DNA of 34,292 bases from Acidobacteria bacterium RIFCSPLOWO2_02_FULL_65_29 (GTDB taxonomy: Bacteria; Acidobacteriota; Vicinamibacteria; Vicinamibacterales; CAVVIG01), in assembly GCA_001767435.1 (NCBI GenBank), contig MEKT01000171.1, positions 1 through 34,292 of the forward strand. The letters run 5' to 3'. A program made the position numbers and the translations under genes. This document shows positions 4,250-33,466 of the stretch, one piece after another; positions within the stretch are counted from its first letter, which is position 1; each line of letters opens with the position of its first letter. The notes below the pieces were generated by a model. That model made no database searches and was not told the origin of the DNA. It saw only the letters and a list, made by a program, of their open reading frames with translations.

Positions 4250-5611
4250 ATGCTCAGGGCGCGCTTCGGTCGCTGCATTTGTGCAGCTGGGATCAGTGCG
4301 GTCGTCGTCCTTCTCCTTCACGCGTCGGCCCTGCCCGGATTGGCCCAGGCCAGCGGCGGCGCCACGGCGGCGGTGACCTTCGCCAAGGACGTCGTCCCGG
4401 TTCTTCAGAAGAACTGTCAGGAATGCCATCGACCCGGCAGCATTGGTCCGATGTCGTTGAGGACCTACGAGGAAGTACGCCCCTGGGTTCGAGCGATCAA
4501 GCAGAAGGTCGTGGCTCGGGAGATGCCGCCTTACCGTTACGACCCAATCGGCATCCAGCACCTGAAGAACGACCTGCGTCTGAGCGACGCGGAGATCCAG
4601 ACGATCGTGCGCTGGGTGGACAGCGGGGCGCCGCTTGGCAACATCGCCGATCTTCCGGCGCCCGCGCAGTTTCCGGATGGCTCCAAGTGGGCGTGGGAAG
4701 ACGAGCTCGGTCCGCCCGATCTCGTGGTTCCGACCAAGCCCTATACGCTTCCGGCCAGCGGGCAGGATCGCTGGTGGCGCCCGATCGTGCCCGTGGGTAC
4801 GACGGCCGACCGCTGTATCAAGGCTCTGTCCGTCAAGCCGTCGCTCAAGGGCCGCGCGGCGGCCCACCACGCCAACAGCGACCTGATGGTCCCCGACGAG
4901 AAGAGCGGACAGTACGTCCAGCTCGAACGCGTCTCGGAGTACGCGTCCGGCAAGTCGGGAGAAATCGTCCCGGCGGATGGCTGCCGCACGCTGCCGGCCA
5001 ACTCGATGATCAGGTGGGACGTCCACTACTGGCCGTTTGGCGAGGAAGTCAAGGACGACGTCGTCGAGCTCGGCATCTGGCTCTACCCGGAGGATCACAA
5101 GGAGAAGGCGAAGCACAAGCAGGATTTGAAGTCCTACTCGCTGCTGATGAAAGGCGGCGAGCTCGAGATTCCGCCGCACGGCACGGCGATGACCCAGGGG
5201 TTTCATTCCTTCAAGACCCCGGTTCGTATCGATAGCTTCCAACCGCACGGCCACGCGCGCCTCGTGGGGATGACGGCCGAGATCTTCCACCCGGACACCG
5301 GCAAGCTGGAGATGGTGAGCTCGGTCTCCAACTGGACCAACCAGTGGCACACCAGCCACGTCTACGAAGACGACTACGCGCCGCTGCTGCCCACTGGAGC
5401 GGTCCTAGTGCTCACCGGTTACTACGACAACACCGCGGCAAACAAGGGGAACCCCGATCCGGATCAGTGGGTGGGCGGCGGAAGCCGCACGGCGGACGAG
5501 ATGTCCCACGCGTGGATTACGGTCACTCACTTGGACGACGAGGGCTACAAGCAGATCGTCGCCGACCGGGAGAGCCGCGCAGCGAAATTGTCCACCGACC
5601 AGCAGCAATAG
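4250..5611 (+). CDS. Exported cytochrome c-like protein with copper type II monooxygenase-like domain
   Basis: 453 residues from ATG 4250. Residues 1-33 are an export signal ending LPGLAQA. A class I haem c site CQECH (56-60), with a possible Met ligand in the following helix region, forms an N-terminal cytochrome domain. The rest resembles peptidylglycine-hydroxylating/dopamine monooxygenase architecture: a HH pair at 206-207 and H259 (RWDVHYWP) fit the first copper site, and HGH at 333-335 with M418/H420 in EMSHAW fit the second. Family enzymes use ascorbate and oxygen to hydroxylate substrates; here the fused haem could be the electron donor (inference). Substrate unknown. It heads a + strand run with two more exported proteins and is closed by a strong terminator at 5642. 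A structural role without catalysis is also possible. Confidence 0.78.
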   Translation: MLRARFGRCICAAGISAVVVLLLHASALPGLAQASGGATAAVTFAKDVVPVLQKNCQECHRPGSIGPMSLRTYEEVRPWVRAIKQKVVAREMPPYRYDPIGIQHLKNDLRLSDAEIQTIVRWVDSGAPLGNIADLPAPAQFPDGSKWAWEDELGPPDLVVPTKPYTLPASGQDRWWRPIVPVGTTADRCIKALSVKPSLKGRAAAHHANSDLMVPDEKSGQYVQLERVSEYASGKSGEIVPADGCRTLPANSMIRWDVHYWPFGEEVKDDVVELGIWLYPEDHKEKAKHKQDLKSYSLLMKGGELEIPPHGTAMTQGFHSFKTPVRIDSFQPHGHARLVGMTAEIFHPDTGKLEMVSSVSNWTNQWHTSHVYEDDYAPLLPTGAVLVLTGYYDNTAANKGNPDPDQWVGGGSRTADEMSHAWITVTHLDDEGYKQIVADRESRAAKLSTDQQQ

Positions 5612-7922: not shown

Positions 7923-9116
7923 TCACGGCGCCGGTTCGATCCGCAGGAGCGCGCCTTCGTCCTCGTCCGTCAACAGGTAGAGAAACCCGTCGGGCCCTTC
8001 GCGCACTTCTCGGATGCGCTGCCTGAGCTCCGACAGCATCGACTCGCGCCGCAGCTCTTCTGTCCTGGCGTTGAGCACGATGCGCTGCAAGTGGCCCGTG
8101 CCTGGTATTCCGCCCTGGCGCATGGATCCCACCAAGACGTTGCCTTTCCACGCCGGGAAGCGGTCGCCGGTGTAGACGGCCATGCCGGCGGCCGCGATGG
8201 CGGGCAGCCAGACCACCAGCGGCGACTCCATCCCCTCCTGCGTCGGATGTTCGGAAATGCGAGGGCCGGGATAGTCGCGTCCGAAACTCACGACTGGCCA
8301 TCCGTAATTGCGGCCCCGCAAGATGATGTTGATCTCGTCGCCGCCGTTGGGACCGTTTTCGTGGTTCCAGAGCGCGCCGGACCCTGGATGGACGATGAGG
8401 CCCAGCGTATTGCGATGGCCCAGGGTGTAGATTTCCGGCCGGTAGCCTGCGTGGTCCACGAACGGGTTGTCGCGCGGAACGGAGCCATCGTCGTGGAGGC
8501 GCAGAATCTTGCCGCGCAGGCTGGCGGGATCCTGCGAGACCTTCCCCGTATTGCCGCCGGTGGACATGTAGACCATGCCGTCACGCCCGAAGACGACACG
8601 GCCGTTGAGGCCCGAGTTGCCCTCGAACGCGTCGGTGACCACAAGGTCCCGGACGTCGGCCAGCGCACCCGCTTCGAGCCTGCCCCGCGCGAGCGCCGGT
8701 GCGCCCCTGCCGTTTCCGACGGGCTTCGTATACGTGAGGTAGACGAGGCGATTGTCGGCAAACCGCGGATGGAGAGCGACGTCCATGAGACCGCCGTTGC
8801 CGTCCGTCCTGACCTGCGGCACTCCGGAAATGGCTTGCGGGTCGAGCACTCCGTTGCGAACGATGCGGAGCCGACCGGGCCGCTCGGTGATCAGCATGCC
8901 TCCGTCCGGCAGGAACGCAATGGCCCATGGATGCGACAGCCCTTTGGTGACGACGCTCACGCGGATCTTGTGCTGCTCGGCCGTATCGAGCACCCATGGT
9001 CCCGCGCCTAGCGGCGGCACCGGTACTCCGACAGGCGGTTGCTGCTGAGCGTGGCTGAGCGCGAGCAGGCCAAGCAGCAAAGGCGCAACCAAAAGGGCGG
9101 AGTGTCTGACCCTCAT
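7923..9116 (-). CDS. Exported PQQ-dependent sugar dehydrogenase family protein (soluble GDH/Asd type)
   Basis: 397 residues from ATG 9116, with GGAGG just upstream. Signal peptide 1-23. The mature chain is a six-bladed beta propeller of the soluble glucose dehydrogenase/YliI family: LSHPWAIAFLPDGGMLITER opens the fold, followed by GNGGLMDVALHPRFADNRLV, VYMSTGGNTGK, YTLGHRNTLGL, NHENGPNGGDEINI and NYGWPVVSFGRDY. Family members bind PQQ and calcium and oxidise aldoses in the periplasm, passing electrons to a quinone or cytochrome. The HRNT and GPNGGDE segments contribute to the cofactor site. The gene is monocistronic and has its own promoter with tandem repeats (9141-9172). No PQQ biosynthesis genes are in the window. 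Confidence 0.92.
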   Translation of the reverse strand: MRVRHSALLVAPLLLGLLALSHAQQQPPVGVPVPPLGAGPWVLDTAEQHKIRVSVVTKGLSHPWAIAFLPDGGMLITERPGRLRIVRNGVLDPQAISGVPQVRTDGNGGLMDVALHPRFADNRLVYLTYTKPVGNGRGAPALARGRLEAGALADVRDLVVTDAFEGNSGLNGRVVFGRDGMVYMSTGGNTGKVSQDPASLRGKILRLHDDGSVPRDNPFVDHAGYRPEIYTLGHRNTLGLIVHPGSGALWNHENGPNGGDEINIILRGRNYGWPVVSFGRDYPGPRISEHPTQEGMESPLVVWLPAIAAAGMAVYTGDRFPAWKGNVLVGSMRQGGIPGTGHLQRIVLNARTEELRRESMLSELRQRIREVREGPDGFLYLLTDEDEGALLRIEPAP

Positions 9117-9140
9117 TCAAGCCTCCAGCGTGTGCGAACC

Positions 9141-9172
9141 AGTATAGGGCGACGCTAGACAAACGCTAGACA
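9141..9172 (-). promoter_or_regulatory. Promoter of the sugar dehydrogenase gene with two direct repeats
   Basis: Read on the minus strand, TGTCTAGCGT occurs twice (9172-9163 and 9161-9152), 11 bases apart, immediately before TATACT (9146-9141), a good -10. The -35 is poor, so the repeats, one helical turn apart, look like activator half-sites. The start codon is 25 bases downstream. Confidence 0.45.
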
Positions 9173-9217
9173 TCGTTTTGGTTACCCACGCGCCGGCCAC
9201 CGCCATTGACCGCCACC

Positions 9218-10042
9218 TTAAGTCTTAGTCGCGCGGACGATCGCGTAGCCCAGACGACGCTCGGCCACGGCGGTCAGCGCCTGCCGGGTCATGCGCTTCG
9301 CAGCCGGGAAATCGATGCTGGCGAGATCGAGCTTCCCGAGTCCCGCCAACACCTCGGTCGCGAAAAGCCGAGTCCCTATGCCTCGAATCATCTCCGTCAG
9401 GGCCTCGTCGTGGGTTTCGATGACCGCTCTCGTGAATCCGGCATCCGTGAGCCACGCCGCATATGAGTCGGCCGGACGTGCGTCCGCGAGACAGGCGATC
9501 CACGCCATCAGATCGGCCAGCTCGCCGGGCGGGCCCGGTGAACGCGTGATGTCACTCAATCCGACGCGCCCGCCGGGCTTCAGTACGCGCGCGAATTCTC
9601 GCGCCGCCCGTGGCTTGTCTGGGAACGTGCAGAAGGCGCACTCACAGATGATCGCGTCCACCGAGGCCTCGCCGAGCGGCAATTGCTCCGCGTCGCCGAC
9701 TTCGAAGTGCAAGCGGCCTGCAAGCCCCAACCGTTCGGCCTCCGTGCTGGCGTGAGCGACGTTTTGTGAGCTCAGATCGACGCCGACGACCGTGCTGCCG
9801 AACCGCTGCGCGATCAGCACCGCACTCGTGCCCTTCCCTGACGCCGCGTCGAGCACCCGGCTCTCTGGCGAGAGGCCGAGCAACCGGCCGAGCCGATCGG
9901 TCAGCGCGGCTCCGCCCGGATGAAAGGATTCGCCCAGCAGTCGCGAGACGATCTCACTCTCGTAGAGCCGCGCGCAGCACTGCTTGATCTCCCCAGCATC
10001 CGGGTGGCTGAGTCCTTCGCCGCGCGACGCCTCGCCGCTCAT
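9218..10042 (-). CDS. Class I SAM-dependent methyltransferase with cysteine motifs
   Basis: 274 residues from ATG 10042. The SAM fold is clear: motif I VLDAASGKG (63-71), the acidic end of strand 2 in VVGVDLS, GDAEQLPLGEASVDAIICE and the motif around LKPGGRVGLSDI. Unusual for a generic methyltransferase are the Cys residues: C22-C23 before the fold and CECAFC at 133-138, the latter in the active-site loop. This pattern recalls the DVU_1556-like methyltransferases and, more distantly, arsenite methyltransferase ArsM, so a metal(loid) or a radical-chemistry partner is possible. Its start overlaps the stop of the upstream radical SAM remnant (ATGA), suggesting they once were a two-gene operon. 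Substrate unknown. Confidence 0.85.
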   Translation of the reverse strand: MSGEASRGEGLSHPDAGEIKQCCARLYESEIVSRLLGESFHPGGAALTDRLGRLLGLSPESRVLDAASGKGTSAVLIAQRFGSTVVGVDLSSQNVAHASTEAERLGLAGRLHFEVGDAEQLPLGEASVDAIICECAFCTFPDKPRAAREFARVLKPGGRVGLSDITRSPGPPGELADLMAWIACLADARPADSYAAWLTDAGFTRAVIETHDEALTEMIRGIGTRLFATEVLAGLGKLDLASIDFPAAKRMTRQALTAVAERRLGYAIVRATKT

Positions 10043-31431: not shown

Positions 31432-32772
31432 CTAGATTGTGTCGGACCCCACGTGCGCTACTCGGTGCCGCTGCTCCTGCCCGAATGCGGCGGCGGGACC
31501 AACGCCGTAGCGCCCGGCATCCAGCAACGCCAAATCCGCCTCGACCGACTGCGTCAGACAATGACGACAGTCGGTTGAGGGAACCGACATCGGAAACTCG
31601 GAATAGAGCGCCTGTCGGCCCACGACCAGATGCGCATAGTAGTCGAGCGCCGCCGGCTCGCGATCCTCGAAGGCCGCGCCGCCGGAGACCACCCACGTGG
31701 CGTACTTCGGATAGATGCCACGCTCGTAGCACCACCGCATGCCGCGGAGCGTGGCATCGGCTGCCGCCTCCGGGCTCGGGTACAACCCCGGCACCGCGGT
31801 CTCGACACCCGCCACGAAGTTGCAGAGTACGTGGCCCTCGCCAAACACATCGACAGCATCGACGAGGCACTTCATCCAGCCTGCGCGGCCGACCGAACGC
31901 GCCTTGCCGGGGAGAATGTCCTGCCAGGCCGCCTCGTCCCACACTTCCATCGAGTAGCACGCGTAGTCGAACTGGGCACGGCGCAGCCGCTCGGTGTCTT
32001 TTGCGTCCAGCGCCTGGATGGCCGCTACGGTCGGCGGAAGCGGCAGGCCGGTGTGCCGCACCGCCTCCATGTAGCGGAGAAACGCGTCGGCTTCCTTCGT
32101 GCGATCGAACAAGCTGCCACCGCTGAAGGCGAGATAACCAATCGAGTGCTGCTCCTGCCAAATCGCGTCCAGCGTCTCGCGGAAGTCGTCGACGTTGGGA
32201 CGCATTTCCTGTGACTTCCCCATGCGCACCCACGAGCAGAACCGACATTCCTCGCCGTCGACGGCGAACTCGCAATGTCGCAACAGGAAGACGGCCACCG
32301 GCCCGCAGACGCCGCCGAGGCTTGGCGTGAACACGCTGGCCATCGGCGTCTGTTGGGCCGTACGCCTGCTGGTCCACGCAAACCGCGGTCCGGGTGTGAG
32401 ATCGCAAATGAGCTCACCATGCGGCCCCTCGCGCAGGGTCAGACGCGAGTCGGGCTCCATCTGGATCACGTACGGACTCGCCGGGTTTTGCGCGATGAAC
32501 ACGGTGGTCCCATCCGGCAAGACCACGCTCCCTTGCAGGTGAGCGCGTGGCCCGAGCGCCTTCTGGCCACGCTCGTCGTGATGGTGGTAGTGACGCGTGC
32601 CGACCGGCGCGTCGCCGAGACGCACACCGCGCCGAACGAGATCGATCTTGAGCATGACCGACGACGGGATGCCTGGGTAGAGCGCCGCAAACGCATCGAG
32701 TTTAGGCACGGCAATCTCCGCCGCGCGGACTCCTGCGCGAGTCGGAAATGCGCGGATATCGGAAGAACGCAA
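31432..32772 (-). CDS. Radical SAM protein with atypical Cx8CxxC cluster motif
   Basis: 446 residues from TTG 32772; ATG at residue 40 is a fallback start. The likely iron-sulphur ligands are C167, C176 and C179 in RHCEFAVDGEECRFCSW, with C156 just before; the spacing is Cx8CxxC, not the usual Cx3CxxC. Downstream FSGGSLF (216-222) stands where the SAM-binding GGE motif is expected, and a chain of alternating strands and helices fits a TIM barrel (IQALDAKDTERLRRAQFDYA, VLCNFVAGVETAVPG). A second Cys pair, C402 and C405 in DCRHCLTQSVEADL, could bind an auxiliary cluster. The N-terminal 150 residues have no match I know. The reaction is unknown. Same strand as the small gene at 32858. Confidence 0.72.
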   Translation of the reverse strand: MRSSDIRAFPTRAGVRAAEIAVPKLDAFAALYPGIPSSVMLKIDLVRRGVRLGDAPVGTRHYHHHDERGQKALGPRAHLQGSVVLPDGTTVFIAQNPASPYVIQMEPDSRLTLREGPHGELICDLTPGPRFAWTSRRTAQQTPMASVFTPSLGGVCGPVAVFLLRHCEFAVDGEECRFCSWVRMGKSQEMRPNVDDFRETLDAIWQEQHSIGYLAFSGGSLFDRTKEADAFLRYMEAVRHTGLPLPPTVAAIQALDAKDTERLRRAQFDYACYSMEVWDEAAWQDILPGKARSVGRAGWMKCLVDAVDVFGEGHVLCNFVAGVETAVPGLYPSPEAAADATLRGMRWCYERGIYPKYATWVVSGGAAFEDREPAALDYYAHLVVGRQALYSEFPMSVPSTDCRHCLTQSVEADLALLDAGRYGVGPAAAFGQEQRHRVAHVGSDTI

Positions 32773-32857: not shown

Positions 32858-33157
32858 CTACTTTTCAATCATGTAGATCTCACGTCGGCCATGATCGATC
32901 AGCTCGTGATACCCCTTCATCGCCGCCTGGAACTCCGGGTTTTCCATGGATTTGCGCGACATCTCGGCATATTCCTCGAGGCTGCGGACCTCGGTCTCCG
33001 ACACGACGGTCCAGTACCGCTCGGCGCTGACGTCGGTCATCACGCGCATCGATCCCATACCCATCTTCTGACTGAGCGCCGAGAGCGCCACGAACTTCTC
33101 GACCATGGGCCGAGCCTTGCCGGGCTTGCAATACATGATGTCTCTCACGAGGTACAT
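32858..33157 (-). CDS. Small protein of probable dimeric alpha/beta-barrel fold
   Basis: 99 residues from ATG 33157, with AAGGAGG a few bases upstream. Pattern beta-alpha-beta-beta-alpha-beta: MYLVRDIMYCKPGKARPMVE, a helix KFVALSALSQK, MRVMTDVSAERYWTVVSETE, then SLEEYAEMSRKSMENPEFQA, AMKGYHELIDHGRREIYMIE. This is the NIPSNAP/Dabb-like ferredoxin-fold plan; such small proteins dimerise and some act as monooxygenases or stress proteins. No catalytic residues are certain. It stands 85 bases upstream of the radical SAM gene on the same strand and may be cotranscribed. Strongly protein-like despite its size. Confidence 0.8.
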   Translation of the reverse strand: MYLVRDIMYCKPGKARPMVEKFVALSALSQKMGMGSMRVMTDVSAERYWTVVSETEVRSLEEYAEMSRKSMENPEFQAAMKGYHELIDHGRREIYMIEK

Positions 33158-33201
33158 AACTGCCTCCTTGGAATCCCAGGCGGGGCTTGCCGACGCAGCT
33201 A

Positions 33202-33262
33202 TCAGCCATCAGCTGTGAGCATCGGTTCTCAGCGACGCAATCGGCTGAAAGCTGATGGCTGA
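33202..33262. repeat. Hairpin of AGCCATCAGCT type in a gene-free stretch
   Basis: TCAGCCATCAGCT (33202-33214) and its exact inverse AGCTGATGGCTGA (33250-33262) flank a 35-base loop; pairing continues weakly outward. Such AGC-CATCAGC simple-sequence palindromes occur between genes in many genomes. The stretch 33158-33466 has no gene. Confidence 0.65.
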
Positions 33263-33466
33263 GAGCCGAGAGCGACGCCAAGTCAAGCGCACTCCGGGAT
33301 CAGGTTCAACGACCCGTGAGAATACGGTACTTCGGCCGGCGACGGCAAACGAGCCCCAATCGGTGAAGGCGGCGGGTCGAAACGCCGGCGCGTCAAAGGG
33401 CTCAGCGCTCCGGCGGGTCGGAATGGCGGCCTCAGGCGCATGGTTGCCTGATCGGCCCGCGTCGTC

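Follow-up and report, generated by a model that had tools for sequence, protein, structure and literature searches.

The window, a 34,292-nucleotide stretch of DNA from a soil bacterium (Acidobacteria bacterium RIFCSPLOWO2_02_FULL_65_29), contains a minus-strand gene that encodes a real protein, a radical SAM enzyme belonging to an already recognized but little-studied family (NCBIfam NF045502). As read from the alignments, what sets the protein and its closest relatives apart within this family is a set of six further invariant cysteines, and not the spacing of the cluster motif. We consider it fairly probable that the protein is a stand-alone NF045502 radical SAM enzyme that has, besides the SAM cluster, a second site made from the six extra cysteines.

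Gene, family and predicted fold

The minus-strand frame from 31432 to 32772 is open in the window, as the first-pass annotation had it, but translation probably begins at the GTG at 32709 and not at the TTG at 32772. We placed the start at 32709 because the start codons of other copies of the gene align there and because a GGAG lies upstream, its end 6 bases before the GTG. An ATG or GTG is found at this place or one residue off in five of the six other copies (L002, L003, L004, L061, L064); the remaining copy, L005, has no ATG, GTG or TTG at the place where the others start. The gene would then span 31432..32709 and encode 425 amino acids (MPKLDAF...), and the upstream part of the longer frame (32710..32772, minus strand) is probably untranslated, judging from the start position in these five copies. 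Residue numbers below count from the TTG at 32772; numbers in the short form are lower by 21.

The window protein scored 160.2 bits with NF045502 ('variant_rSAM'; cut-off 125) over residues 39-381, and five other copies from its branch of the family scored 145.1-168.4 bits against the same cut-off. All six copies scanned passed, the one left out of the seven being L005. With these scores, and with a low-confidence model that matches radical SAM barrels, the original assignment to the radical SAM proteins stands. NF045502 is a domain-level model, and its name states no function. The annotation had also remarked that about 150 N-terminal residues resembled nothing recognizable. Pfam was indeed silent on the window protein at E ≤ 1, Radical_SAM included, but NF045502 covers residues 39-381, and therefore most of the N-terminal part lies within the family. 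Searches of solved structures by sequence gave no convincing match, and viral contigs gave no match to the window protein or to query A3. In a sample of 396 genomes of the phylum, 109 had a match to NF045502 over its cut-off. There were no close copies in these 396 outside the window's own genome; eight other matches at E ≤ 1e-30 scored just 107-117 bits.

Homology to TIGR04043 (MSMEG_0568) was weak, at 27.8 bits, far under the cut-off of 303.7 for membership. TIGR04043 probably corresponds to NitD from the Nit1C cluster, and NF045502 is presumably the same group as COG2516. In a 2005 nitrilase study, the radical SAM enzymes of Nit1C are placed closest to COG2516, 'biotin synthase-related' (PMC1199592), and another paper gives NitD as the radical SAM protein of a cyanide-assimilation cluster (PMC8567248). 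This gene-cluster work on Nit1C was the only literature on a related enzyme that we found; literature searches on NF045502, MSMEG_0568, COG2516 and CX8CX2C radical SAM proteins returned no reaction for any NF045502 member. There was no nitrilase match among the 17 other open reading frames of the window that were scanned, and the genes adjacent to the enzyme gene (for PIG-L, a PLP decarboxylase, a DUF7507 protein and a small protein that no family claimed) are not those of a Nit1C cluster.

An AlphaFold2 model built from five sequences had a mean pLDDT of 53.7. Means over ten residues were 58-92 across short-form residues 171-340 and below 50 in the cluster loop, and the N-terminal part folded alone reached a pLDDT of 50. 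The model appears to contain a partial TIM barrel, and radical SAM structures head the lists of both Foldseek and VIA-align. The top Foldseek matches of this low-confidence model were HydE, biotin synthase, HydG, ThiH and HemN, with E-values from 5.5e-5 upwards, and some TIM barrels from outside the radical SAM enzymes also passed E 0.001 (Sul2, rank 14). VIA-align gave LipA (Z 14.1, rmsd 3.5, 214 aligned residues), HydG (Z 13.4, rmsd 3.9, 214 aligned), ThiH (Z 12.6, rmsd 3.3, 212 aligned) and NifB (Z 12.4, rmsd 3.2, 189 aligned), with Elp3 at rank 38 (Z 11.2, rmsd 4.5, 208 residues). In this model the scores of LipA, HydG, ThiH and NifB are too close to single out one family; a radical SAM barrel is the fold that this low-confidence model suggests.

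The cluster motif and six branch-specific cysteines

The cysteines picked out in the first reading of the sequence are all present on the minus strand: the Cx8CxxC motif formed by C167 (32272..32274), C176 (32245..32247) and C179 (32236..32238), an extra cysteine before it (C156), and C402-RH-C405 near the end. We followed C167, C176 and C179 in a 27-row alignment, which consisted of the seven copies of the window's branch and 20 relatives hand-picked among the family matches. All three proved conserved: they are present in 20 of the 20 relatives and intact in six of the seven branch copies, the seventh (L005) having a TGA at C167. These three cysteines would hold the [4Fe-4S] cluster at which S-adenosylmethionine is bound and cleaved; the resulting radical would attack a substrate inside the partial TIM barrel of the low-confidence model. 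Short-form residues G197, G198, E255, N297, G301 and E303 are invariant in nine sequences of two branches, at places that we presume to be like SAM-binding motifs.

The spacing of the motif had been offered as a mark of new chemistry, a claim that did not survive comparison with the family. We collapsed all phmmer matches, the window protein included, to 55 distinct proteins, in which the first two cluster cysteines were separated by 8 residues in 18 proteins, by 10 in 25 and by 11 in 10; the other two, read by eye, were L057, with a gap of 14, and L005, with its TGA at the first cysteine. Because the gap before CxxC varies through the family, with 8, 10, 11 or 14 residues all normal, the spacing is a family trait which the window protein shares, and we rejected it as a sign of unique chemistry. 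Biotin synthase, HydE, ThiH and LipA, whose barrel fold the low-confidence model of the window protein resembles, differ from it in having the classical Cx3CxxC. ThiC, HmdB and Elp3 are like it in having non-classical spacings, but theirs are different from the one seen here.

The window protein's own branch has seven known copies, six of them in six different genomes, out of 193 from the class, and one (L002) in a bin labelled Limisphaerales. It forms one side of a split with support 100/97, and its six other members are 60-74% identical to the window protein. Genes listed under several labels (L003/L062/L027, L004/L063/L028 and L005/L065/L030) were each counted once. A scan of genome contigs by exact peptide patterns found four copies; because the patterns had to match exactly, it may have missed some. 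Beside this branch lies a second one, in which the motif region reads much like CQYFGxxxECQFCDINENYRQQ. Matches from Streptomyces plasmids group with that sister branch, at 60-63% identity, and two of the four sister-branch proteins scanned weakly matched bioB.

Six cysteines distinguish the window's branch from the other NF045502 members aligned: C156 (32305..32307), C272 (31957..31959, in a predicted barrel strand at short-form 249-255), C302 (31867..31869, in a predicted helix), C348 (31729..31731), and C402 and C405 of the C-terminal CxxC (31558..31569), all on the minus strand. They are invariant in all seven branch copies and occur in none of the 20 other relatives aligned; near the C-terminus this absence rests on the alignment itself, because the two other branches align poorly there. 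A YHHHD stretch (short-form 41-45; 32575..32589, minus strand) is a further difference, identical in all seven copies, five of which keep the longer HYHHHDE intact. Family membership, the conservation of the cysteines and the branch are established at the level of sequence, and six cysteines kept in seven of seven copies against none of 20 relatives make a second site a possibility.

We propose that the six cysteines form a second site in this branch, most likely an auxiliary Fe-S cluster around C402 and C405, with C156 and/or C348 as further ligands, that would serve electron transfer or substrate binding. A part for C402 and C405 in such a site is consistent with their conservation throughout the branch. 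The auxiliary cluster taken on its own is a plausible but tentative proposal, to which we give slightly less than even weight. In biotin synthase the auxiliary cluster is held by cysteines in barrel strands 2, 3 and 5 and by an arginine, whereas in the window protein the stretch from C179 to C272, into which predicted strands 2 and 3 fall, contains no further cysteine. SPASM is a cysteine-rich C-terminal domain with about seven cysteines; the window protein has two after C348, and no Pfam family matched it at E ≤ 1.

The strongest competing explanation is that there is only one cluster, the SAM cluster, and that the six extra cysteines have structural or redox roles or were inherited within the branch without holding a cluster; C402 and C405 could then make up, for instance, a CxxC that binds zinc or forms a disulfide. 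The enrichment for branch-specific cysteines is suggestive and not strong: 6 of 9 invariant cysteines are branch-specific, compared to 62 of 175 invariant columns (P = 0.05). C302 falls in a predicted helix, only two cysteines follow C348, and C317, which lies outside the set of six, is replaced by serine in one of the seven copies; all of this would suit a single cluster. Against it, all six cysteines are kept in seven of seven copies, with 60-74% identity between the window protein and the other six, while C123 and C317 vary. We regard a single cluster as distinctly possible, but lean away from it. Slightly more doubtful is the idea that C156, C272, C302, C348, C402 and C405, perhaps together with YHHHD, form a second metal site that runs an undescribed reaction.

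A copy with UGA at the first cluster cysteine

A bolder idea, and one that we find much less likely than a second site in the branch, concerns the copy L005 (genome G116; the gene lies at L005:5971-7239), in which a TGA stands exactly at the codon for C167. The first cluster cysteine of this copy could be selenocysteine, and selenium a ligand of the radical SAM cluster. There is thus an in-frame UGA at a conserved cysteine in a genome with selenocysteine machinery: G116 has selB (314 bits), tRNA-Sec (66 bits) and a copy of selD that itself bears an in-frame TGA. Purifying selection appears to act on the codons before and after the TGA (dN/dS 0.19 and 0.10 against L064, with synonymous sites near saturation). 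In the nearest copy, 120 single changes would create a stop, and only three of them hit a motif cysteine; the remaining genes on the contig look whole by eye.

The sequence after the TGA speaks against selenocysteine. The 45 bases from the L005 TGA fold with -6.6 kcal/mol, the weakest value among the seven copies (the other six range from -7.5 to -17.9), compared to -21.4 and -21.8 kcal/mol after the selD TGA of the window's genome (G000) and of G116, respectively; other stretch lengths gave up to -15.0 kcal/mol, at 66 bases. Counted by a rule for SECIS hairpins, L005 has 4 base pairs, compared to 5-7 in the six copies with cysteine and 6-7 in selD, and we found no SECIS-like hairpin after the UGA. 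A hairpin that flanks the TGA was considered as a SECIS element and rejected: by eye, the TGC codon of the window gene sits in the same kind of palindrome, and the hairpin therefore follows from the protein motif. The missing start codon in frame where the other copies start also counts against selenocysteine, as does the restriction of the UGA to a single copy in a single bin. One study reports a stable stem-loop downstream of the UGA for each of its new selenoproteins (PMC1088965). We conclude that a broken gene or a base error is likelier, and that selenocysteine at this position is quite improbable.

Selenocysteine in a radical SAM protein is as such known, since two reviews list radical SAM selenoprotein families, TIGR04167 in both (PMC9312934, PMC13188914) and TrsS in the latter (PMC13188914). 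A second independent case of UGA at the first cluster cysteine would be important.

We made some further observations on selenium genes in the two genomes. The window's own genome has a selD (L108, G000:C60:7132-8055) whose in-frame TGA precedes a strong hairpin, and the organism therefore very likely makes selenoproteins; selB adjoins it at 8144-10033, and the top match for tRNA-Sec is a weak one, at 48.9 bits with a gathering score of 47. The selD of G116 with the in-frame TGA (L114, G116:C104:4759-5686) is a second match, in two pieces with a break near 5334-5339, and an uninterrupted selD with no TGA is located at C65.

Gene surroundings and significance

The order of genes on the minus strand is a DUF7507 protein, a 99-amino-acid protein (32858..33157), the radical SAM enzyme, a PIG-L deacetylase and a PLP-dependent decarboxylase. 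The first-pass annotation described the small protein as a dimeric barrel and a possible partner or peptide carrier. The small open reading frame does exist, but no Pfam match over cut-off and no NCBIfam match bears out the barrel. Homologues occur in 13 of the 193 genomes of the class, two of them among the six with the enzyme and 11 without it, and in one of the genomes with both (G119) the two are on different contigs. A two-gene peptide-modifying system would fit the common strand and the 148 bases from the neighbor's stop codon to the probable start of the enzyme gene, but it is strongly disfavoured, given that the small protein adjoins none of the six other copies, that 11 of the 13 genomes with it have no enzyme, and that a plasmid record with a 61% homologue of it has no radical SAM relative among the matches listed; we rejected the neighbor as a partner on these loci and on the co-occurrence in just two of 13 genomes. 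Upstream of the gene for the small protein is an inverted repeat with 23-base arms (33198-33266). Its CAGCCATCAGCT-like sequence had 67 matches in the genome with one mismatch allowed, and a reversed control was commoner, with 95.

The search for conserved neighbors, which had been suggested as a check, gave none. When the seven loci, of 7-15 kb each, were compared all against all, no neighbor was common to more than two. Besides the enzyme and frames that overlap it, there were three weak pairs, each from two loci, with 30-37% identity, one of them being the window's decarboxylase and an incomplete frame at one edge of L064. Ten neighbors in five other loci differed widely: citrate synthase and LepA; a quinohemoprotein amine dehydrogenase subunit; a cupin and a multihaem cytochrome; a sortilin-like protein; a 3-keto-disaccharide hydrolase and a chromate transporter; and two proteins with no match. 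By eye, L002 seems to have biotin ligase and nadC among its neighbors. We suggest that the enzyme may act on a small molecule or cofactor, with no fixed gene partner.

In the sister branch (CQYFG...ECQFCDINENYRQQ), a few loci have some of their neighbors in common. A protein of 540-618 amino acids recurs near the radical SAM gene in L093, L094, L095 and L098, and one of 348-351 amino acids is found near it in three of these four. These recurring neighbors are a possible functional clue for the family.

Enzymes of NF045502 are common, yet the literature that we searched describes no reaction for them. The branch found here, with its six named cysteines, offers a well-defined system in which the possible origin of an auxiliary cluster inside this family can be examined.
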